From the NCBI GenBank assembly GCA_946885605.1, contig CAMPGR010000093.1, positions 1-14,841 on the forward strand: DNA of 14,841 nt, in the 5' to 3' direction. Every line of letters begins with the position of its first letter. Position 1 is the first letter of the stretch. Positions 1,943-14,460 of this stretch are shown here, piece by piece. Made by a program: the position numbers and the translations under genes. Below the pieces are notes generated by a model that saw only the letters and a list, made by a program, of their open reading frames with translations, was not told the origin of the DNA and did no database searches. Source of the DNA: an uncultured Pseudomonadota bacterium (lineage in GTDB: Bacteria; Pseudomonadota; Gammaproteobacteria; Burkholderiales; SG8-41).

Positions 1943-2824
1943 ATGCGCGTGCAGGCCCATGGTAGACCGTCCATGAAACTGGAACATCAGGAAATACCTG
2001 CTGACCGGCGTCACGCTCTCGGCGTAACCCGGGTTTCGAGCGTGGCTTCGGGCGCGCGCTGTGCGGTGATGAGTGTCTGGTGTTCGGGGCGGGCCGTCGA
2101 TCCGGCACGGCAGCCGGGGTCCGAAGATATAGAGATCCTCATACCCGGCGATCCGGAGGCCTGCACCATGGTCATCGCTCTCGACCGCGCCTACTTCGAG
2201 CGCAAGGCGCGGGAGGTGCTGGGCGGCGAAGCGGTCACCACGGCCGAAATTCCACCACGGGTCGAGCGTTATGCCGCCGCCGCGGACCCTTTGATGAGAG
2301 AGATCGGCAACGCGCTGCGCAGCGAAGTCCACTCGCGGCGGCGCCCCAACGCCGCCTATCTCGAATGCATGGCAGCAATGGTCGCGATCCACCTCGCGAA
2401 GACGTACTGCGGAGGAGCGCCCGCACTGCCGCCGTGCGCCGGGCTACCCCCCCACAAGCTCGCCCGGGTGCAGAGCTTCATCAACGCCCATCTAGCGGAA
2501 GGACTCCGCCTGAAGCAATTGGCCGGCGTTGTCCACATGAGCACTTTCCATTTCTCGCGCATGTTCAAGCAGGCCACTGGCCGATCTCCGCACGCGTACC
2601 TCACCGAGCTGCGCGTGGAGCAGGCGAAGCGCTTGTTGACGGAGAGCACGCTTCCTCTCATTGAAGTGGCAGCTCGAGTCGGCTTTCAGACCCAGGGGCA
2701 TTTCACGGGGGTGTTTCACCGCCATACCGGCCTCACGCCGCGCGTATTCCGGATGAACTGTCCGGCGAGGCATACCGCCGAGGCGTCGTCCGACTCAGCT
2801 CCTCAACGGCGCGCCAGAGCATGA
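1943..2824 (+). CDS. AraC/XylS-family transcriptional regulator
   Basis: Predicted DNA-binding regulator of 293 residues from the first ATG. A second in-frame ATG at 1973 is equally plausible because neither has a clear ribosome-binding site. The N-terminal ~170 residues look like a divergent sensing domain with no recognised ligand motif. The C-terminal ~100 residues are a clear AraC double helix-turn-helix: LARVQSFINAHLAEGLRLKQ, then LAGVVHMSTFHFSRMFKQAT (first HTH), then the second HTH with PLIEVAARVGFQTQGHFTGV and the family-typical FHRHTGLTPRVFR. The stop overlaps the ftsH start as ATGA, so the two are probably co-transcribed and translationally coupled. That makes it a candidate local regulator of the stress cluster, an inference from position alone. 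Confidence 0.9.
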   Translation: MRVQAHGRPSMKLEHQEIPADRRHALGVTRVSSVASGARCAVMSVWCSGRAVDPARQPGSEDIEILIPGDPEACTMVIALDRAYFERKAREVLGGEAVTTAEIPPRVERYAAAADPLMREIGNALRSEVHSRRRPNAAYLECMAAMVAIHLAKTYCGGAPALPPCAGLPPHKLARVQSFINAHLAEGLRLKQLAGVVHMSTFHFSRMFKQATGRSPHAYLTELRVEQAKRLLTESTLPLIEVAARVGFQTQGHFTGVFHRHTGLTPRVFRMNCPARHTAEASSDSAPQRRARA

Positions 2825-4686
2825 ACAAGAAAGAAGCACAATGGAACGTCAGTTACCTGATTTTCTCGGTGATCGCGCTGCTGCTGTTCCAGTCCTGGCT
2901 AAGCGAGGCGCGCGTAACGGAAGTCGTTCCCTATAGCGAGTTGGAGCGCGCGCTCGAACAAGGTCGAGTCGAGCGCGTGGTGCTGACCGAGCGCCGTATC
3001 GTCGGGCACCTCAAGAAACCGACGGAGCAAGGCAAGCGCGTGATCGCGGCCAACCTGGTGGAGCCGGATCTGGCCGAGCGGCTCTCCCGTTTCAACGTGC
3101 CGTACACCCGCGAGCACGAGAGCAACCTCCTGACGGCCGTCATTTCGTGGGTTGCGCCCGCCCTGGTGTTCTTCGCCGTTTGGTACTTCCTGTTCCGCAG
3201 CTTCGCGGAGAAGCAGGGCATGGGCGGGTTCATGTCGATCGGCAAAAGCCGGGCCAAGGTGATGATGGAGAAATCCACGGGCGTGACCTTCGCCGACGTG
3301 GCGGGCGTGGACGAGGCCAAAGTGGAGCTGCAGGAAGTCGTGGAATTTCTCAAGAACCCGGCGCGTTACAGCCGTCTCGGGGCGCGTGTGCCCAAGGGAA
3401 TTCTCCTGGTGGGTCCACCGGGCACCGGCAAGACCCTTCTCGCCCGTGCGGTGGCCGGCGAGGCGGGGGTCACCTTTTTCTCCACCAACGGTGCGGAGTT
3501 CGTGGAGATGTTCGTCGGTGTCGGCGCGGCGCGTGTGCGCGATCTATTCGAGCAGGCGCGGGCGCGCGCGCCCGCAATCATCTTCATCGACGAGCTCGAT
3601 GCGCTGGGGCGCGCGCGCGGTGCCTATGCCATCGGTGGTCACGACGAGAAGGAACAGACGCTGAACCAGCTGCTCTCCGAAATGGACGGCTTCGACCCGT
3701 CAGTGGGCGTCGTGATCCTTGGCGCGACCAACCGGCCCGAGATCCTCGATCCAGCGCTGCTGCGCGCCGGCCGTTTCGACCGTCAGGTGGCGGTCGACCG
3801 TCCGGACAAGAAGGGACGCCTGCAGATCCTCCAGGTGCACGCGCGCAAGGTCAAGCTCGCCCCGGACGTGAACCTCGAGCAGATCGCAGCGATCACGCCC
3901 GGGTTCGTCGGAGCGGATCTCGCCAACCTGGTGAACGAAGCGGCGCTGCTCGCCACGCGGCGCGGCGCCGAGGCGGTAACGATGGAGGATTTCACCGCGG
4001 CCGTGGAGCGCATCGTGGCCGGCCTGGAAAAAAGACATCGCGTGCTCAGCGAAACCGAGCGCAAGGTCGTCGCCCACCACGAGATGGGTCACGCGCTGGT
4101 GGCGATGGCGCTGCCGGGCGCCGATCCGGTTCACAAGATTTCGATCATCCCGCGCGGCGTCGGCGCTCTGGGATACACCCTCCAGCGCCCGACCGAGGAC
4201 CGTTTTCTCATGACGCGCGAGGAAATGGAGAACAAGATGGCGGTGCTACTCGGCGGGCGCGCCGCCGAAATGCTGGTCTTCGGGCGTCCGTCCACCGGGG
4301 CCGCCGACGACCTCGCGAAGGCGACCGACATCGCCCGCGCCATGGTCTTGCGCTACGGCATGCACGAGCGGCTCGGTCTCGTCGCGTATGAGGACGAGCG
4401 CCGCAATCTCTTCCTCGGCACGCCGACGCAGCCGCCGCCGGGCGAGCGTCGCTACAGCGAGGAAACCGCGCGGCAGATCGACGAGGCGGTGCGAGAGGCC
4501 GTCCGACGAGCGTACGACTCGGCGTCCGGCATCCTCACACGCGGACGCAAGGTGCTCGAGACCGGTGCGAAGCGGCTCCTGGAGAAAGAGACACTGTTGG
4601 ACCGAGACCTCGACCTCCTGCGTGGCGAACTGCTCGATCTATTGAAGCGCTCCGGCGTTCCGCTTGCCGCTGCGGGTGCATCGTGA
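2821..4686 (+). CDS. ftsH: FtsH-type membrane ATP-dependent zinc metalloprotease
   Basis: Inner-membrane AAA+ protease that extracts and degrades misfolded membrane and some soluble proteins. It has 621 residues, slightly shorter than E. coli FtsH. Two membrane segments (about 10-27 and 104-127) flank a periplasmic domain. The AAA module has Walker A GPPGTGKT (198-205), Walker [12 protein letters not shown], and the second region of homology [20 protein letters not shown]. The zinc protease site is H420-E-M-G-H424, a variant of the usual HEAGH that keeps the HExxH ligands and catalytic Glu. The probable third zinc ligand is Asp497 in [12 protein letters not shown]. The ATG overlaps the AraC stop (ATGA) and no strong ribosome-binding site precedes it. 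As part of a set with hsp20, clpG and degP it is probably an island-borne paralogue rather than the housekeeping ftsH, which normally sits beside rlmE. That would need a genome check. Confidence 0.96.
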
Positions 4687-4765: not shown

Positions 4766-6442
4766 ATGTCTCCGGACGATCTTGTCCTTTCTCTTCAGCG
4801 CGCGAGCGATCTTCTCGTGCGGCGACTGCGCCGCGGCGCCTCGCCGCCCGTCACGCATCGCCGGTTGCTGATCGTGCAGATCGACGGTCTGTCGCGCTCC
4901 CGTTTCGAACAGGCGCTCACGTCGAAGCGCATGCCCTTCGTCAGGCGACTGATCGAGAGCGGCCGCTATCATCTCGAGCCCATGTCGGTGGGCTTGCCCA
5001 CCTCGACGCCAGCCTTCCAGATGGCAGCTTTCTACGGCGTCCGTCCGGACATCCCGGGGTTCCACTATTACAACCGCGAGCGACGGGGCGACATACACTT
5101 CCCGCGGTCCGGCCACGCGGCATGGGTTGAAGGCAAGCATTCCGCCGACCGGCGCGGCATCCTGCAAGGCGGCAGCGCGTACGGCTGCTGCTTTACCGGG
5201 GGCGCGGAAAACAATTTCTTCACGTTTGCCAGCCTGACGAAGCCGAGCGGCCGGGGAATACTGTCCGCGTTGTCGCCATACTTCGTCGTTGCGTGGGTGG
5301 CCGGAAAGAACCTCGCGCTGACGCTCTATGAGATTGCGCGGGCCGTGCCGCGCTTCGTCGCCCATCCCCGCCGCCGCGCGCGGCGCGGCTGGCGCTGGTT
5401 GTGGCTGAAGGTCGGGATGGGGATCTGGATCCGCAATTTTTTCACGATGGCGGTATCCCGCGACCTTTACGCAGGCGTGCCCGTCATCTACGTCAATTAC
5501 CTGGATTATGACGAGGCCGCGCATGCCTACGGCCCGAACAGTCGCCGCGTGGTGCAGGCTCTCCGCGGAGTGGACCGCGCAATACGCCAGCTCTGGCGCG
5601 TCATGCGGCGCGTGCCCGAGCACGACTACGACGCCTATATTTTGGCCGATCACGGACAGGCTCCGTGCACGCCCTACCGGGAGCTGAGCAGGGGCCGGCG
5701 CCTGGAGCGCTGGATCTTCGACGAGTTCCTCCATCCCGTCGGAGCGGACGTACCTCAAAACCCGAACCACGGCCTCACACGTGGAATCCACACGCGCCGC
5801 AAGGGTACCGCCGGCATGTTCCAGCGTTTCATGAACTATATCGACGAGGACTATTTCCGCCAGCGCGATCCGCAAGCTTACGAGCAAGATGGCGTGCGCG
5901 TGATTGCCGCGGGACCCAATGCGTTTCTCTATGCGCTGGATACCGCCGCCCCGCTTGACATCGAAGCGATAGATCGGAAGTTTCCGGAGCTGCCGGAAAA
6001 GTTGTCGCGCAGCCTCGGCATAGGCTATGTCCTGGCCCGCTCGACGAACGGCCCGGTATGTTTCTGGCAAGGGGAGCGCCATGTGTTGCGCGCTTCGGAG
6101 CCCGGCCCGTTTGCGGGGCGCGAGGATTCCGCCACCGTCGTGCAAGGCATCGTCGACCTGATGGCCATGCCAAGCGCAGGGGATCTCGTCATCTACGGCA
6201 CCGACGCCCCCAAGGGCCATGTGTCGTATATACCCGAACACGGCGCTCACGCCGGAACCTCACCGGACGAGATGCACACCTTCATCGTTCGGCCGGCACG
6301 GGCCGTCTTGCCGTTACCGATCTCCCATCCGGTTCAGCTCTACAAGCACTTCATGCGCTACCAGAACGGATGGCCGCGATCAGCAGGAATCCGTCACGCA
6401 TCCGCAAGGGCGGGGAAGAATGGTCAGGGCACCTGTGCGTAA
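4766..6442 (+). CDS. Alkaline-phosphatase-superfamily hydrolase (nucleotide pyrophosphatase/phosphodiesterase-like)
   Basis: Predicted metal-dependent phosphoester hydrolase of 558 residues; substrate unknown. Alkaline-phosphatase-superfamily landmarks appear in order: metal-ligand Asp40 in VQIDGLS; a candidate Thr/Ser nucleophile in GLPTSTPAFQ (Thr79-Thr81); Asp249 and His253 in YLDYDEAAHAYGP; Asp295-His296 in LADHGQ; and a C-terminal EHGAHAG with His492 and His495. These fit a two-metal phosphodiesterase core. There is no signal peptide. A stretch around residues 175-235 is hydrophobic and basic (Arg/Trp-rich) and might associate with the membrane. The ATG start has no good ribosome-binding site; a purine-rich GGAGGATAG lies further upstream at about 4717-4726 but leads to no long frame. 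It sits between ftsH and hdeD in the same direction. It is not a usual member of the heat-resistance island as I know it. The family call is firm; the function is not. Confidence 0.85.
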   Translation: MSPDDLVLSLQRASDLLVRRLRRGASPPVTHRRLLIVQIDGLSRSRFEQALTSKRMPFVRRLIESGRYHLEPMSVGLPTSTPAFQMAAFYGVRPDIPGFHYYNRERRGDIHFPRSGHAAWVEGKHSADRRGILQGGSAYGCCFTGGAENNFFTFASLTKPSGRGILSALSPYFVVAWVAGKNLALTLYEIARAVPRFVAHPRRRARRGWRWLWLKVGMGIWIRNFFTMAVSRDLYAGVPVIYVNYLDYDEAAHAYGPNSRRVVQALRGVDRAIRQLWRVMRRVPEHDYDAYILADHGQAPCTPYRELSRGRRLERWIFDEFLHPVGADVPQNPNHGLTRGIHTRRKGTAGMFQRFMNYIDEDYFRQRDPQAYEQDGVRVIAAGPNAFLYALDTAAPLDIEAIDRKFPELPEKLSRSLGIGYVLARSTNGPVCFWQGERHVLRASEPGPFAGREDSATVVQGIVDLMAMPSAGDLVIYGTDAPKGHVSYIPEHGAHAGTSPDEMHTFIVRPARAVLPLPISHPVQLYKHFMRYQNGWPRSAGIRHASARAGKNGQGTCA

Positions 6443-6473: not shown

Positions 6474-7052
6474 ATGGAAGATCTGATTTCCCGAACCTGG
6501 TGGGTCCTTGCACTGCAAGGCGCCTGCGCGCTCGCGTTCGGCATCCTCGCGCTGCTGTGGCCCGACATCACGCTCCTGTGGCTGGTCGCGCTGTTCGCGG
6601 CCTACGCGTTGATCGCCGGTGTGATGACCGTGGTCGGCGTGGTGAGAAACCGCAGGCGCGAAGAGTACTGGTGGCTCCTGCTTCTGCTCGGACTCTCCAG
6701 CATTGCGGCCGGCGTGATCGCCGTGCTGCATCCCGATCTGACGGCGCTTGTGCTCGTGTTGCTCATGGGTGCGAACGCGCTGGTAAACGGGGTCCTGCAC
6801 ATCGCATTGGCAATCCAGCTGCGCAAGGTGATTCGCGGCGAGTGGCTGATGGTGGCGGCTGGCATCGTTTCGATCGTGTTCGGCATCCTCGTTTTCCTTT
6901 TCCCGGGCGCAGGCGCGCTCGCCCTCGTTTGGCTGATCAGCGCTTATGCCATCCTGATTGGCATATTGCTGCTCGCCGTAGCCCTCCGCGCCAGGGCATT
7001 GGCCAAGGCGTCAGGCCGAAGACCGCGGCGGGAAGCGGTGAGGCAACACTGA
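6474..7052 (+). CDS. hdeD: HdeD-family (DUF308) six-helix membrane protein
   Basis: Integral inner-membrane protein of 192 residues. Six hydrophobic helices are visible at about 9-30, 32-57, 63-86, 88-113, 121-144 and 145-172, in the three-hairpin repeat pattern of the HdeD/DUF308 family. Family features include the WWVLALQGACALAFGILALLWP first helix and the repeated GI.A.L.P turns at helix ends. HdeD of E. coli is linked to acid resistance at high cell density, and homologues recur in transmissible heat-resistance islands; the biochemical role is not settled. A basic tail (ASGRRPRREAVRQH) is probably cytoplasmic. It starts 31 bases after the hydrolase gene with only a weak AGCGGA upstream, consistent with an operon. 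Confidence 0.9.
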   Translation: MEDLISRTWWVLALQGACALAFGILALLWPDITLLWLVALFAAYALIAGVMTVVGVVRNRRREEYWWLLLLLGLSSIAAGVIAVLHPDLTALVLVLLMGANALVNGVLHIALAIQLRKVIRGEWLMVAAGIVSIVFGILVFLFPGAGALALVWLISAYAILIGILLLAVALRARALAKASGRRPRREAVRQH

Positions 7053-7113: not shown

Positions 7114-7130
7114 CGAAGGAGATCATGATG
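7114..7130 (+). promoter_or_regulatory. Ribosome-binding site and double ATG of hsp20
   Basis: A strong AAGGAG (7116-7121) precedes two adjacent in-frame ATGs at 7125 and 7128. The spacing is 3 bases to the first and 6 to the second, so the second ATG may be the one mainly used. It is one of the clearest ribosome-binding sites in the cluster, suggesting high translation of the small heat-shock protein. Confidence 0.7.
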
Positions 7131-7706
7131 AAACTGGACGTCGGAAAGTGGAATCCCTTCAGATTCCTGCGCAGGTCGGCCGGAGAGCGGCGCAACGAGC
7201 CGTCGCAGACGGGACTGGCTGCGGCCGGCAACATGCCGGCAGCCTGGCCGGACGCGCTCATGGCGCAGCCGCTGCGCATGATGCAGGACATGATGATGCG
7301 CGATCCGTTCAGCGTGATGCGCGATCCCTTCAGCGGCGCGGGGCTGGAGCGCTGGTTTGGCGACTTCAGCCCCGGCACTTTTCTACCGCGCCTCGACGTG
7401 GTGGACGATGGCGACGCGCTGCGTGTCATCGCCGAGCTTCCCGGCATGGATCGCAAGGACGTGGAGATCATCCTCGAAGATGATGCGATCGTGCTGCGCG
7501 GCGAGAAGAAGCTCGAGTCGGAGACCGAGGAACAGGGCTGCTACCGCGTCGAGCGCGCGTTCGGCAGCTTCCAGCGCGTAATCCCGCTTCCCGAAGGTGT
7601 GGACATCAAAGGCGCCGAGGCAAAGTTCGAAAACGGAGTGCTGACGGTGCGCCTGCCAAAGAGCACGGCAGACAAACCCGGCGCCCGGCGGATCGAGATC
7701 AAGTAA
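7125..7706 (+). CDS. Hsp20-family small heat-shock protein
   Basis: ATP-independent holdase chaperone of 193 residues that would bind unfolding proteins and hand them to the disaggregase encoded next. The alpha-crystallin domain runs from about 88 to 180 (start LPRLDVVDDGDALRVIAELP; signature AKFENGVLTVRLPK at 166-179). A C-terminal I-x-I oligomerisation motif is present as Ile190-Glu-Ile192, two residues from the end. The N-terminal arm is long and Met-rich (LMAQPLRMMQDMMMRDPFS) and contains a tandem heptapeptide MRDPFSV/MRDPFSG at 58-71, encoded by two adjacent 21-bp copies. It lies 48 bases upstream of the ClpG-type gene, the sHsp-clpG pairing known from transmissible protein-quality-control islands. 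Confidence 0.96.
   Translation: MMKLDVGKWNPFRFLRRSAGERRNEPSQTGLAAAGNMPAAWPDALMAQPLRMMQDMMMRDPFSVMRDPFSGAGLERWFGDFSPGTFLPRLDVVDDGDALRVIAELPGMDRKDVEIILEDDAIVLRGEKKLESETEEQGCYRVERAFGSFQRVIPLPEGVDIKGAEAKFENGVLTVRLPKSTADKPGARRIEIK
7294..7335 (+). repeat. Tandem 21-bp duplication inside hsp20
   Basis: Two directly adjacent 21-base units (7294-7314 and 7315-7335) differ at a single position (G7307 versus C7328). They encode the heptapeptides MRDPFSV and MRDPFSG in the N-terminal arm. The unit is a multiple of three, so the frame is kept. Confidence 0.9.
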
Positions 7707-7754: not shown

Positions 7755-10505
<2,751 letters not shown>

Positions 10506-10522
10506 GAACCGTGACCAGGCTT

Positions 10523-10547
10523 CCCCCACCGTTCCATTCGGTGGGGG
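10523..10547 (+). terminator. Perfect 9-bp hairpin between clpG and degP
   Basis: CCCCCACCG (10523-10531) pairs fully with CGGTGGGGG (10539-10547) around a 7-base loop. A further outer pairing AACCGT (10507-10512) with ACGGTT (10554-10559) could enclose it. Only TTAAG follows, so it lacks a proper T-run. It begins 18 bases after the clpG stop and ends 30 bases before the degP start. It may be an attenuator, a leaky terminator or an mRNA 3'-end stabiliser that separates clpG from degP expression. Confidence 0.6.
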
Positions 10548-10577
10548 TTAAGAACGGTTTCGAGGAGAAACAGCGCC

Positions 10578-11450
10578 ATGGCTGTACGTCACGACCGCTT
10601 TCTTTCGAGGGTCCTGTGGGTGACCGTGGTTGCCATCACGATCGTGAACGCGTGGCAGGCTCCATCATGGAGGGAGCGCGCGTTCATCGGCCTTGGCGCC
10701 GCTCCGCGCCTCGTGGAAGCGCGTGGCGATCTGGCGGACGAGGAGAAAAGCACAATCGAGCTCTTCGAAAAATCGAGAGGCTCTGTCGTCTACATCACCA
10801 CTACGGAGCGCGTGCTGGACCTTTGGTCGCGCACCGGCTCCGGGTTCCTCTGGGATGAAATCGGGCATGTGGTCACGAATTTTCATGTGGTCGGCAATGC
10901 CGAAGCGCGTGTGCGACTGAACGATGGACGCGAATACGGGGCCGCTCTGGTGGGCGCAAGCCCGTTGCATGACCTTGCGGTGCTGCGCATCCGGATCTCG
11001 GGCAGCCTTCCGACACCCTTGCCCGTGGGCTCGAGCGGGGAGCTCAAGGTCGGGCAGAAAGTCTTCGCGATCGGAAACCCGTTCGGGCTCGACTGGTCGC
11101 TCACCACTGGGGTCGTCTCGGCGCTCGACCGGTCGATCCCGACCGAGGACGCGCGCAGCGTGATCGAGCACCTCATCCAAACCGACGCCGCGATCAACCC
11201 GGGCAATTCAGGGGGGCCGCTGCTCGATTCCGCCGGCCGCTTGATTGGCGTCAATACCGCGATCTATAGCCCTTCGGGCGCTTATGCCGGCGTCGGCTTC
11301 GCCGTGCCCGTTGATACCGTAAACCGGGTCGTACCCCAGCTGATCTCCCGCGGCAACTACATTCATCCAATGCCAGGGGTCGGAGCGGGCGACACCACCA
11401 TCGCCGTGAATGGCAAAGACAGTGGAGGTCGCAAGGCTGATTATCAGTAA
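10578..11450 (+). CDS. degP: DegP/HtrA-type serine protease, truncated (PDZ domain lost)
   Basis: Trypsin-like envelope quality-control protease of 290 residues. An N-terminal hydrophobic segment (about 11-27) would act as a membrane anchor or signal, placing the protease domain in the periplasm. The catalytic triad is intact: His103 in VTNFHVVGNA, Asp132 in LHDLAVLRI and Ser211 in INPGNSGGPLL. After the protease core (to about RGNYIHP) the sequence jumps to AGDTTIAVNGK, which resembles only the last part of a PDZ domain (GDxIxAVNGK), and stops 11 residues later. Most of the PDZ domain is therefore missing, and a frameshift near 11418 probably removes the rest. Full-length single-PDZ relatives are roughly 80-100 residues longer. 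AGGAG (10563-10567) precedes the ATG. The protease may be active but unable to sense substrates through PDZ; it could equally be a decaying gene. Confidence 0.88.
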   Translation: MAVRHDRFLSRVLWVTVVAITIVNAWQAPSWRERAFIGLGAAPRLVEARGDLADEEKSTIELFEKSRGSVVYITTTERVLDLWSRTGSGFLWDEIGHVVTNFHVVGNAEARVRLNDGREYGAALVGASPLHDLAVLRIRISGSLPTPLPVGSSGELKVGQKVFAIGNPFGLDWSLTTGVVSALDRSIPTEDARSVIEHLIQTDAAINPGNSGGPLLDSAGRLIGVNTAIYSPSGAYAGVGFAVPVDTVNRVVPQLISRGNYIHPMPGVGAGDTTIAVNGKDSGGRKADYQ

Positions 11451-11535
11451 ACACAACACCGTGCGGCGCCGCGGAACTGAGCGGTATGCAAGGCTCTGGA
11501 ATGACCGTCAGTGGCTGACAACACCCGGAAGATGA
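11385..11535 (+). pseudogene. Degraded PDZ remnant at the degP 3' end
   Basis: The degP frame shows a PDZ-like GDTTIAVNGK and then diverges. From about 11416 the next frame stays open to a TGA at 11533-11535 and reads KTVEVARLIISKHNTVRRRG followed by ERYARLWNDRQWLTTPG. Joined as NGK-TVEVARL, this resembles the usual NGKxVxxxxxL continuation of HtrA PDZ domains, with a Trp/Asp/Gln stretch like the final PDZ strand. The simplest reading is an internal deletion plus a small frameshift. This is judged by eye without an alignment. Confidence 0.45.
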
Positions 11536-12047
11536 AGATAGAAGCCGACCGCAATCTTCTGGACGAATTATTGGCGGAGACTCGCCGTCATTGGCCGGTG
11601 ATGACGGCGTACGAGCGCTTCGAGCAAATCGTCGCTCTGGTGCTCAGTACCATCATAGCGATCCTCGTCGCTATTGCGCTCGTTCAACTGGTTCTCCAGG
11701 TATTGCCGCTGTTAATCGGCGGCGCTCTCAACATCCTGGACCATAGCGTCTTCCAGGCATTGTTCGGCGCGATCATGACACTGCTGATCGCGATGGAGTT
11801 CAAGCATTCGATTATCCGTGTCGCGGCGCGGAGAGAGCACATTATCCGGGTGAAGACGGTGGTTCTTGTCGCTCTCCTCGCGCTCAGCCGAAAATTCATC
11901 ATCCTGGACACGGATCAGACCAGCGCGGCCTCTGTTGCAGCGCTTGCGGGCGCCACCTTCGTGCTGGGAATCGTGTACTGGCTGTTGCGCGAGCGAGACG
12001 ATCGCTTGGGCACGTCGAGTACGTTTGACGAGGGAAGGTCGGCATGA
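11511..12047 (+). CDS. psiE: PsiE-family (phosphate-starvation-inducible) membrane protein
   Basis: Small inner-membrane protein of 178 residues from a GTG start at 11511. An ATG at 11532 (residue 8) is the alternative, and neither has a strong ribosome-binding site. Four hydrophobic helices are visible (about 37-67, 80-98, 117-133 and 143-163). The family-typical core is MEFKHSIIR followed by IRVKTVVLVALLALSRKFI and ILD. PsiE is named from phosphate-starvation induction in E. coli; its molecular function is unknown, but homologues recur with degP in heat-resistance islands. The start lies within the degraded downstream remnant of degP, so the erosion of degP reaches its leader. Its stop overlaps the start of the S4 gene by ATGA. 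Confidence 0.92.
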   Translation: MADNTRKMKIEADRNLLDELLAETRRHWPVMTAYERFEQIVALVLSTIIAILVAIALVQLVLQVLPLLIGGALNILDHSVFQALFGAIMTLLIAMEFKHSIIRVAARREHIIRVKTVVLVALLALSRKFIILDTDQTSAASVAALAGATFVLGIVYWLLRERDDRLGTSSTFDEGRSA

Positions 12048-12658
12048 GCAGGCCTGGTCCTCGCCTCAAGCGCATGCGCGCGCTCGGGTTGAATCTTCCC
12101 GGGCTGTCTCGCAAGTCGATCGAGAAGCGGCCGTATCCTCCGGGCCAGCATGGTCCGCGCAAGGCGGGCCGCCGCATCTCCGATTTCGGCAGGCAGCTCC
12201 TGGAGAAGCAGAAGCTGCGACTCAACTACGGGCTGAATGAAAGCGATCTTCGCCGCGCGGTTCTCGAAGCGCGGCGCAGCACACTGTCCACGGGCGCCAA
12301 GCTGGTCGAGCTGCTGGAACGGCGGCTGGACAATGTGGTATTCCGCGCGGGACTGGCGCCGTCGATTCCGGCTGCACGACAGCTCGTGCGACACCGCCAC
12401 ATCAGCGTAAACGACCGCGTCGTCACGATCCCGTCCCTGCGGGTACGCGCGGGCGATGTCATCGCGGCGCGTGAGCGTAGCCGTGAGCACCCTGTGATTC
12501 TTGACGCGCTACAGAATCCGGCACTCACGCGTCCCGACTGGCTTGCAGTGGACCCCGAAAGGCGAGTGGCGACCGTCAAGGCGCTGCCGGACCAGGGCGC
12601 GCCACCCTTTCCTGTGGACCTGCAGCGAGTGGTGGAGTACTACGCCACGCGAATTTGA
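12044..12658 (+). CDS. rpsD: Ribosomal protein S4 paralogue (C-minus form)
   Basis: Small-subunit 16S rRNA-binding protein of 204 residues, about the usual S4 length. Conserved S4 features are RPYPPGQHGPRK (29-40), ISDFGRQLLEKQKLRLNYG (45-63), the S4 RNA-binding domain (about 86-147: LLERRLDNVVFRAG, ARQLVRHRHISVN, VRAGDVIAARERSR) and a VEYYATRI ending. The N-terminal zinc-binding cysteines of C-plus S4 proteins are absent, and the first 30 residues diverge from a normal MARY-type start. The normal rpsD lies between rpsK and rpoA; this one stands alone behind psiE with an ATGA overlap and a good AGGGAAGG (12031-12038). It is therefore most likely a second, accessory S4. Whether it replaces S4 in ribosomes or acts as a free RNA-binding regulator is unknown. 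Confidence 0.93.
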   Translation: MSRPGPRLKRMRALGLNLPGLSRKSIEKRPYPPGQHGPRKAGRRISDFGRQLLEKQKLRLNYGLNESDLRRAVLEARRSTLSTGAKLVELLERRLDNVVFRAGLAPSIPAARQLVRHRHISVNDRVVTIPSLRVRAGDVIAARERSREHPVILDALQNPALTRPDWLAVDPERRVATVKALPDQGAPPFPVDLQRVVEYYATRI

Positions 12659-12741
12659 TCGGCATTGCGGCGCTTGCGCCGGCGTCGCGGCGCAGGGATG
12701 GCAAGGCTTATCCGCCGCGCTCGCTGGAAGAGGGAGGTGAA

Positions 12742-14445
12742 TCAGTGTTGCGCAAGTGCGTGATAACCCGGCTGTCCCTGGCGAGCAAGGAAAGCGTGAA
12801 TCTGGGGAACCGCCGCGGCGCCCTCGCCGATGGCGGCGCCCACGCGCTTGACCGATCCGGAGCGAACATCTCCAATCGCGAAAACCCCGGGCACGCTGCT
12901 CTCCAACGGCATGCGGCCATCCTTGCCCGTCGTCACGAATCCATGGTGATCAAGCGCGACGCCGCAATGTGCCAGCCATTCTGTGATTGGAACCGCGCCC
13001 AGGAATAGGAACACATGGCGGATCGGCCGCGTTTCCTGTTGGTTCGTGTCACGCTGGCACCACGTTACGGACTGCAGGCCGGACTCCGGGGTACCCGTCA
13101 CTCCGATGATCTCGGTGAGCTTTCGAATCTCGATGTTGGGGATCGCTTCCAGGCGGTCGATCAGATATTTCGACATGCTGGCGGCGAGGCTGGCACCGCG
13201 AACCAGCATCCATACTTTGGATACATGCTTAGAAAGATAATCAGCGGCCTGACCTGCTGAGTTGCCGCCACCCACGACAACGACCTCCTGTCGCTCGCAC
13301 ATCCTGGCTTCGATGGGCGAGGCCCAGTACCAGACGCCGTGCCCTTCCATGGCCCTGAGAGCGGGACAGTCCGGGCGGCGATACCGCGCGCCCGTGGCAA
13401 TGACCACCACACGACTGCGCACTGAGCGACTGTCGGCATGGTGGAGCGTAAAGAGATTGCCGTTGGTGGCCGACGCGCAATCAAGGTGGGCGACCTCGGA
13501 TGGAATCAATATGGTTGCACCGAACTTCTGCGCCTGGGTGAAAGCGCGTCCGGCCAATGCCTGACCCGAAATGCCAGTTGGAAAGCCAAGATAATTCTCG
13601 ATGCGCGCGCTGGCGCCGGCCTGTCCACCGAACCACCGCGCATCGATTGCCATTACGGACATGCCTTCCGAGGCCGCGTAGACTGCGGTCGCCAATCCAG
13701 CTGGACCCGCGCCCACGATGGCCAAGTCGTGCACCATAGCGTCGCGGGGGCCGATATCCAGCATGCCCATGCACGCTGCGAGCGCCCGTTCGGTCGGATT
13801 GCGCAGCACCGATCCATCGGGGCAGATGGCGAGCGGCAGCTCGGCCGGTCGTTCCGCGTAGTGCTCGATGAACGTTTGCGCATCCTGATCCCTGTCGGGA
13901 TCGAGCAGCAGGTGCGGAATGCCATTGCGGCTCAAGAAAGCGCGCAGCATGGCGACGTCGCCGGACGATTCGTGCCCGATCAGCACAGGGCCTCCCGTGC
14001 CGGTCTCGATCAACGCCACGCGACGCAGGATCAGTGCGCGCATGATCTTCTCGCCGAGATCTGCCTCCGCGATCAGTAAGGCCTGCAGGTGTTCCGGGGC
14101 GATCAGCAGTGCGTCCACATCCTCGATCGCCACAGCATCCACGAGGGAGTGCCGGCCGGAAAGCGATGTCAGTTCGCCGGCAAAGTTTCCAGCGAAGTAA
14201 TCGACTACGTGTGCCTCGTGTCCGTGTCTGTCGCGAGCCGTAATGCGGAGGGTTCCCGACAGCACGACGACAAGGCCGGGACTGGGCTTGCCTGTGCTAT
14301 AGACTCGCTCGCCCGCTCTATAGCCGCATGGCGTCCCGAATCGGCGCATGCGCGCAATCTCGTTCGGTGCGAGGACCGGGAAGGTTTGTGCGCGCCGCGT
14401 TTCGAGCGTCGGCGATGTGAGTTCATTCATCGTACCGTCTTGCAT
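12742..14445 (-). CDS. Cyclic-nucleotide-binding-like domain fused to thioredoxin-reductase-like flavoprotein
   Basis: Predicted FAD/NAD(P)H oxidoreductase of 567 residues from the ATG at 14445. GTG at 14460 and ATG at 14430 are alternatives, and none has a convincing ribosome-binding site. Order: a CRP-like cNMP-binding fold (about 25-145; GELTSLSGRHSLVDAVA), a thioredoxin/glutaredoxin-like linker (about 150-225; VLIGHESSGDVAMLRAFL) without a CxxC, then a TrxR-type reductase with FAD motif GAGPAG (245-250), NAD(P) motif GGGNSAG (392-398) and FAD-binding GVFAIGDVRSGSVKRVGA. Where classical TrxR has CATC it reads GVWYWASPIEARMC, so disulfide chemistry by the usual pair is impossible. The phosphate-binding Arg of the cNMP motif is replaced by Ser. 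It is convergent with the S4 gene, 83 bases apart, and so is probably transcribed separately. The true electron acceptor is unknown. Confidence 0.9.
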   Translation of the reverse strand: MQDGTMNELTSPTLETRRAQTFPVLAPNEIARMRRFGTPCGYRAGERVYSTGKPSPGLVVVLSGTLRITARDRHGHEAHVVDYFAGNFAGELTSLSGRHSLVDAVAIEDVDALLIAPEHLQALLIAEADLGEKIMRALILRRVALIETGTGGPVLIGHESSGDVAMLRAFLSRNGIPHLLLDPDRDQDAQTFIEHYAERPAELPLAICPDGSVLRNPTERALAACMGMLDIGPRDAMVHDLAIVGAGPAGLATAVYAASEGMSVMAIDARWFGGQAGASARIENYLGFPTGISGQALAGRAFTQAQKFGATILIPSEVAHLDCASATNGNLFTLHHADSRSVRSRVVVIATGARYRRPDCPALRAMEGHGVWYWASPIEARMCERQEVVVVGGGNSAGQAADYLSKHVSKVWMLVRGASLAASMSKYLIDRLEAIPNIEIRKLTEIIGVTGTPESGLQSVTWCQRDTNQQETRPIRHVFLFLGAVPITEWLAHCGVALDHHGFVTTGKDGRMPLESSVPGVFAIGDVRSGSVKRVGAAIGEGAAAVPQIHAFLARQGQPGYHALAQH

Positions 14446-14460
14446 TGTCTGAGGCTGCAC

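Follow-up and report, generated by a model that had tools for sequence, protein, structure and literature searches.

A cysteine-free ribosomal protein S4 of the C-(IV) type at the end of a putative proteostasis stress operon, with a lead to iron control in its relatives

The locus described here raises the question of why a gene for ribosomal protein S4 should be the last member of what looks like an operon for proteostasis under stress. The window (the whole stretch of 14,841 nucleotides that was analysed) carries this gene, for which we use the name rpsD2, at 12044..12658 on the forward strand, and its product was identified by profiles, fold and tree as a cysteine-free S4 of the C-(IV) type. 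We consider the locus to be a known S4 class in a new setting, which also provides a lead on the purpose of part of that class. In the available text of the 2009 study that defined the class the role of S4 paralogues was left open (PMC3087516), and the role of ribosomal Fe-S clusters, including that of Thermus S4, is called poorly understood in the portions available of another article (PMC11791143). The reading that we favour, and to which we give about an even chance, is that the window protein is a cluster-free stand-in S4 of the C-(IV) type, a kind of protein that is partly iron-controlled in relatives and that is here part of a proteostasis stress operon.

The S4 gene and the operon that it closes

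The open reading frame at 12044-12658 begins with ATG and encodes 204 residues, with zero cysteines and zero internal stops. Its product matched the NCBIfam profile NF003717 with 214.4 bits (cut-off 116) and TIGR01017 (rpsD_bact) with 200.1 bits, above the equivalog cut-off of 177.2, in both cases over nearly the full length, and Pfam placed a Ribosomal_S4 domain at residues 5-92 and an S4 domain at 93-140. S4 chains were the top matches in a PDB sequence search with the protein. An AlphaFold model (mean pLDDT 79, with residues 1-40 poorly predicted) was used for a Foldseek search in which ribosome entries ranked first, including the S4 chain 1fjg_D, and the predicted fold of the window protein matches that of ribosomal S4. 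The open reading frame, the profile scores above cut-off and the fold match together confirm the claim of the first-pass annotation that this is a complete, divergent and cysteine-free S4. The protein retains 44 of the 54 columns conserved at 90% or more in 132 other S4s, which were assumed to be ordinary, and 49 of the 52 columns conserved at 95% or more in 109 proteins of its own clade. Judged by its sequence, it is probably a working S4 of the 30S subunit that would bind 16S rRNA. The protein database contains an entry 99% identical to it (P0001, with 11 member sequences, on a 2516-base contig), which argues against the window gene being an accident of assembly, and the next relatives in that search are 73% identical and lower. 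Residues 68 and 124 of the window protein are both aspartate, at positions where 96 and 98% of the 109 clade proteins have glutamine and glycine, respectively; Asp124 is also present in the relative P0002.

The genes named below that precede S4 lie on the same strand. They begin with an AraC-type regulator (1943..2824, domain profile), which overlaps the gene for an FtsH protease (2821..4686, domain and family profiles) by 4 nt, and continue with genes for a type I phosphodiesterase-like protein (4766..6442, PF01663), an HdeD-like DUF308 protein (6474..7052, PF03729), an Hsp20 small heat shock protein (7125..7706, PF00011), a ClpK/ClpG-like AAA+ protein (7755..10505; 1285 bits against the NCBIfam ClpK profile, below its cut-off of 1900), a DegP/HtrA-like protease domain in which Pfam reported no PDZ domain (10578..11450, domain and family profiles) and a PsiE family membrane protein whose start codon is uncertain (11511..12047; PF06146, 1.2e-29). 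Gaps between the named genes, from the AraC gene (1943) to the end of S4 (12658), range from -4 to 79 nt. Convergent with S4, and separated from it by 83 nt, is a reverse-strand gene whose product resembles thioredoxin reductase and has a cyclic-nucleotide-binding domain at its N-terminus (12742-14460, domain and family profiles). The start of S4 overlaps the end of psiE by 4 nt (ATGA), and a ribosome-binding-site-like sequence, GAGGGAAGG, was recognised by eye inside psiE at 12030..12038 on the forward strand, 5 nt before the S4 ATG; both elements are seen in the sequence as the first-pass annotation had reported them. As S4 is coupled to psiE at the end of the operon, it would be made whenever the operon is on. 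Scans of 10400-12900 for sigma-70 promoters and terminators gave no match, nor did a simple scan for sigma-32, sigma-E and sigma-54 consensus sequences, and Rfam returned nothing at the gathering threshold.

In its gene content the operon resembles the tLST islands of plasmids (PMC8290217, PMC5347186), as both have genes for Hsp20, a ClpK-like protein, FtsH, HdeD, PsiE and DegP on one strand. The window PsiE is ~62% identical to its counterpart from tLST-type plasmids, FtsH is 69% identical to that of Enterobacteriaceae plasmids and the ClpK-like protein is ~63% identical to Klebsiella ClpK. A protein search with the window FtsH places it near proteins of Steroidobacteraceae and Burkholderiales. 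The psiE-htpX-degP order of tLST, which is seen in a Klebsiella plasmid (L374) with htpX overlapping psiE, is not that of the window, where the order is degP-psiE-rpsD: HtpX is missing after psiE, S4 stands in its place and DegP precedes psiE. The AraC regulator, the phosphodiesterase and S4 are additions relative to tLST, Hsp20 is shared and the ClpK/ClpG score falls short of the curated cut-off. The words "ribosomal" and "rpsD" are absent from the main texts of both tLST articles, and our literature search found no S4 in tLST islands.

S4 class, copy number and two alternative roles

According to the available text of Chen et al. 2009 (PMC3087516), S4 proteins of the C-(IV) class have no cysteines, are missing the indel at the second cysteine pair, contain the motif PGXHG and are encoded outside the alpha operon by genes that have moved horizontally; those named, from Nitrosomonas, Myxococcus, Sorangium and Bdellovibrio, are mobile and usually accompany a four-cysteine S4. 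The sequence of the window S4 fits this class. All four metal-site cysteines are absent, PGQHG is present at residues 33-37, the second-cysteine-pair indel is absent (as read from the sequences, the N-terminus is shorter than that of the 209-residue C+ forms) and its neighbours are psiE and the thioredoxin-reductase-like gene, a position outside the alpha operon. The presence of PGXHG without the indel sets it apart from class C-(V). What distinguishes the window gene from the paralogues of that study is that it closes a proteostasis stress operon and is coupled to psiE; neither "stress" nor "psiE" occurs in the main text of the article, which searched for Zur sites. Cysteines are also rare at the N-terminus of the relatives: among the 110 context proteins that share 50% or more identity with the window S4, 104 have none in their first 45 residues and the other six have one. 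The first-pass annotation foresaw neither this established class nor the link to iron described below.

A tree of 91 S4s placed the window protein within a 56-row set (97/97) that contains, besides two sole S4s and relatives from metagenomes, second S4s of Rhodocyclaceae-like and Myxococcota genomes, where the label "Rhodocyclaceae-like" rests on a Dechloromonas locus (L073) and on a protein (L206) identical to the Niveibacterium protein P0088. A 63-row set just outside it adds five second S4s of Myxococcota and two single S4s, from a Planctomycetota member (L004) and Granulicella (L031), and the opposite side of the tree is occupied by the ordinary S4s that were sampled, from betaproteobacteria, Myxococcota, Bacillota, Bacteroidota and some additional groups. 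Family members were found in eight of 200 genomes of the order of genome G001 (the split copy of G001 included), in 57 of 199 of the family of G144 and, at E <=1e-50 and with some members just 45-50% identical, in 74 of 282 of the phylum of G003. Three of 369 genomes of the class of G001 gave S4 matches that are 48-50% identical and that may be of another type. In a Dechloromonas MAG (L073 / L160) the second S4 is split over two frames, representing either decay or an assembly error.

Two S4s are present in 42 of 45 genomes with a family member (seven from the order of G001 and 38 of the 57 from the family of G144), and one S4 in the remaining three. Alpha-operon S4s were fetched from 20 of the 42 two-S4 genomes, and in all 20 there are cysteines at positions 9, 12, 26 and 31 and the CX2C...CX4C arrangement is intact. 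Among other genomes of the order of G001, the 21 best-scoring single S4s include four with the same four cysteines and 17 with two or one. The window gene is probably a second copy, as the term paralogue in the first-pass annotation implied, since a pair of S4s is the state of 42 of the 45 genomes in which a relative occurs, and we infer that it most likely accompanies an alpha-operon S4 in its host. Both "paralogue" and "stress operon member" are interpretations of this gene rather than observations.

Two other roles for the window protein would set it apart from a cluster-free stand-in. The host alpha operon could have lost rpsD, leaving the window copy to do all the work, as seems to have happened in genomes G058 and G105, in which no S4 other than the family member was detected (E 1e-10) and the alpha operon runs rpsM-rpsK-rpoA without rpsD (loci L335 and L334); a Methylobacillus case in the available text of PMC3087516 is comparable. 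These two genomes indicate that members of the clade can serve working ribosomes, whereas the third genome with one S4, G159, is uninformative because rpoA was not found in it. We consider such a loss in the window's host to be improbable, given that two S4s are kept in nearly all genomes with a family member and that an essential gene closing a stress operon would be odd. Alternatively, a stress copy of S4 might yield more error-prone ribosomes and thereby prime stress responses. The window S4 has lost the equivalents of R184 and E193, which lie near the C-terminus and are 98 and 96% conserved in the 132 other S4s, and the available texts of three articles report that error-prone rpsD I199N shields E. 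coli from oxidative stress (PMC4330365), that error-prone S4 protects it from the same stress (PMC12186496) and that error-prone (ram) mutations of S4 map to the S4/S5 interface (PMC6379664). However, the Arg and Glu at window positions 184 and 193 are replaced throughout the clade, including in both sole S4s, which indicates that cells can grow with the change, and we regard a tuning of fidelity as very improbable.

The psiE-rpsD pair in other genomes

The first-pass annotation had proposed that S4 is a designed member of the operon and that adjacency of psiE and rpsD should be surveyed across genomes. We compiled 119 contexts of S4 relatives, 97 of them extending 4 kb or more to either side, which were searched with the window proteins other than the response regulator as queries (E 1e-4) and in which genes were called with a crude home-made caller. 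Relatives of PsiE, ClpK, Hsp20, HdeD, FtsH, the phosphodiesterase and the AraC regulator were found in none of the 119 at this threshold, and DegP-like proteins (two contexts), thioredoxin-reductase-like proteins (five) and histidine kinases (ten) were all at least 2 kb from S4. The reciprocal sample comprised 45 psiE loci of 2.1-3.5 kb each (15 genes from 250 genomes and 30 of 33 from 369 genomes); S4 was absent from all of them, and Hsp20 was present in six, DegP in five, FtsH in four and HtpX in two. The psiE-S4 pair has thus far been seen only in the window, with the closest relatives, P0002-P0009 (65-73% identical), lying outside the sample. The physical coupling to psiE speaks for an operon member, but conserved linkage, whose lack the first-pass annotation had said would argue for chance, was not borne out. 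With the pair absent elsewhere in the sample, S4 may have joined the operon recently or by accident.

Viral contigs contained no relative of the window S4, a tblastn search of plasmids gave matches in 64 records, all below 60% identity, and three plasmid neighbourhoods (L001, which is an alpha operon, L002 and L003) contained no stress island; a scan of genome contigs returned mostly ordinary S4s among the matches listed. We also considered linkage to heat shock genes as a trait of the family and rejected it, as only four of the 119 loci (L153, L154, L156 and L158) have a same-strand htpG (Hsp90) gene upstream of S4, at a distance of 2-6 kb, and these are close relatives and were not taken as a pattern.

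Fur-like boxes and iron-related neighbours of the relatives

Upstream regions of 200 nt (300 nt in one earlier scan) were compared with a Fur consensus of 19 positions at thresholds of 12-15 matches, and 118 of the 119 S4 loci had sufficient upstream DNA. Boxes with at least 13 of 19 matches were found at 24 of the 118 S4 loci, compared with 43 of the 695 genes lying up to 4 kb away in the same contexts, 17 of 555 genes beyond 4 kb and 12 of the 248 genes beyond 4 kb whose upstream region is mostly intergenic. At 14 or more matches the corresponding counts were 14 of 118, 22 of 695, nine of 555 and six of 248. Fisher tests against the 248 gave p values of 1.5e-5 (at least 13) and 7e-4 (at least 14), which ignore relatedness and are too small because the loci are related to each other. 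The G+C content of the S4 upstream regions is like that of the 248 controls (0.60 and 0.60), and none of 150 permuted palindromes gave so large an excess as the Fur consensus. When the S4s were clustered at 75% identity, a Fur-like box was present in ten of 45 clusters; two of the cases, L159 and L167, are S4s less than 50% identical, and without such rows the count is 22 of 111. The palindromes reach 17 of 19 matches, with examples at L324, L325, L257, L218, L224, L327, L161, L163-L167 and L171.

The excess concerns part of the class, as 94 of the 118 relatives have no box at 13 or more matches and the window S4 itself has none, its best score within 200 nt being 10 of 19; a match of 13 of 19 lies farther upstream, inside the psiE coding sequence (300-nt scan). 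The two sole S4s are also without a box (11 and 9 of 19), which is a weak point since their two nearest second-copy kin have none either (9 and 12 of 19). Among the results listed, our literature search, run on terms other than Fur, found no iron control of S4 paralogues.

In some of the relatives the genes around S4 include ones for iron uptake. At 11 of the 119 loci (L153, L154, L156, L158, L205, L220, L226, L231, L237, L245 and L247) exbB is no more than ~2.2 kb from a second or sole S4, which shares its strand with exbB, tonB and exbD and stands ahead of these genes or after them; exbB is farther away at seven additional loci. Where S4 stands behind exbD (seven loci), a 14/19 Fur match occurs once in the 1 kb preceding the ton genes, and where S4 stands before tonB (four loci), three have 14 or 15 of 19 before tonB, i.e. 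behind S4. Pfam families were assigned to 92 of 97 called upstream and 82 of 99 called downstream neighbours, after 5 upstream and 17 downstream calls that were very long, short or truncated had been left out. Among the 25 of 45 upstream families listed were EAL, periplasmic binding protein and radical-SAM/UPF0004 (four each), FeoB, ChaN-type haem-binding and TonB receptor plug (three each) and Hsp90 (two), and among the 25 of 72 downstream families listed were TonB plug (four), glycosyltransferase (three), ZIP (two) and TonB (two). These counts have no control set, and EAL and radical-SAM neighbours are as common as the iron families.

The metal site of S4 is described as zinc in older literature, and the window protein might accordingly serve to spare zinc, as is usual for C- paralogues, under the control of Zur. 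Such a role would agree with the four cysteines of all 20 alpha-operon partners, with the two ZIP zinc transporters among the 82 downstream neighbours, with the regulation by Zur that the available text of PMC3087516 describes for other C- ribosomal proteins and with Zur-like sites of 12 or more matches being weakly in excess at S4 loci (39 of the 118, compared with 50 of the 248 control genes). The excess is not clear at 13 or more (12 of 118 against 17 of 248) or at 14 or more (5 of 118 against 3 of 248; in 300 nt, 6 of 118 against 4 of 354 for shuffles), and the same text saw no Zur site near S4 paralogues, making this explanation unlikely. A passive origin, in which a mobile spare rpsD landed behind psiE and is read through without any role in stress, has a better but still rather low probability. 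It would account for the lack of linkage in both directions, for recurrent neighbours being common only to subsets of S4 loci and for the description of S4 outside the alpha operon as "quite mobile" in the available text of PMC3087516, but not readily for the ATGA coupling with its ribosome-binding site or for conserved S4 residues that are mostly intact; in addition, the linkage counts leave out the nearest relatives, P0002-P0009.

The favoured reading, a cluster-free stand-in, draws on the four-cysteine uS4 of T. thermophilus, which binds an Fe4S4 cluster according to the available texts of PMC6555806, PMC10450194 and PMC11791143, Thermus being the only case for which a [4Fe-4S] cluster in S4 has been shown. 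Potentially, C-(IV) proteins of the relatives stand in for a four-cysteine S4 whose metal site can be empty or destroyed, and making them would let 30S assembly proceed without the metal; the predicted Fur operator or iron-uptake neighbourhood at part of their genes would be consistent with such a function. If controlled by Fur, a cluster-free S4 would be to iron what the zinc-free ribosomal proteins under Zur (such as paralogues of L31, L33, L36, S14 and S18) are to zinc, the latter being likewise metal-free stand-ins for cysteine-containing proteins. It would differ from them in that the protein is S4, that Fur-like sites are clearer than Zur-like ones and that its partner may carry an Fe-S cluster. 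As such clusters are liable to be destroyed by heat and oxidants, a cluster-free S4 could serve in a stress operon too. The window gene may have been captured as the last member of a tLST-like operon, with translational coupling to psiE, and its product would then take the place of S4 in ribosomes made during heat or oxidative stress, to the possible benefit of the host.

More generally, we tentatively suggest that in bacteria with a four-cysteine S4 an Fe-S-free replacement S4 under Fur or stress control acts as an assembly switch, by which ribosomes dispense with the S4 cluster when iron is scarce or clusters are damaged, and that in the window this module was captured by an operon for tolerance of heat and oxidation. 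If true, a cluster-free S4 tied both to iron control and to capture by a stress operon would join the question of the S4 paralogues with that of the ribosomal Fe-S clusters, and the two together would become experimentally testable in a cultured strain.
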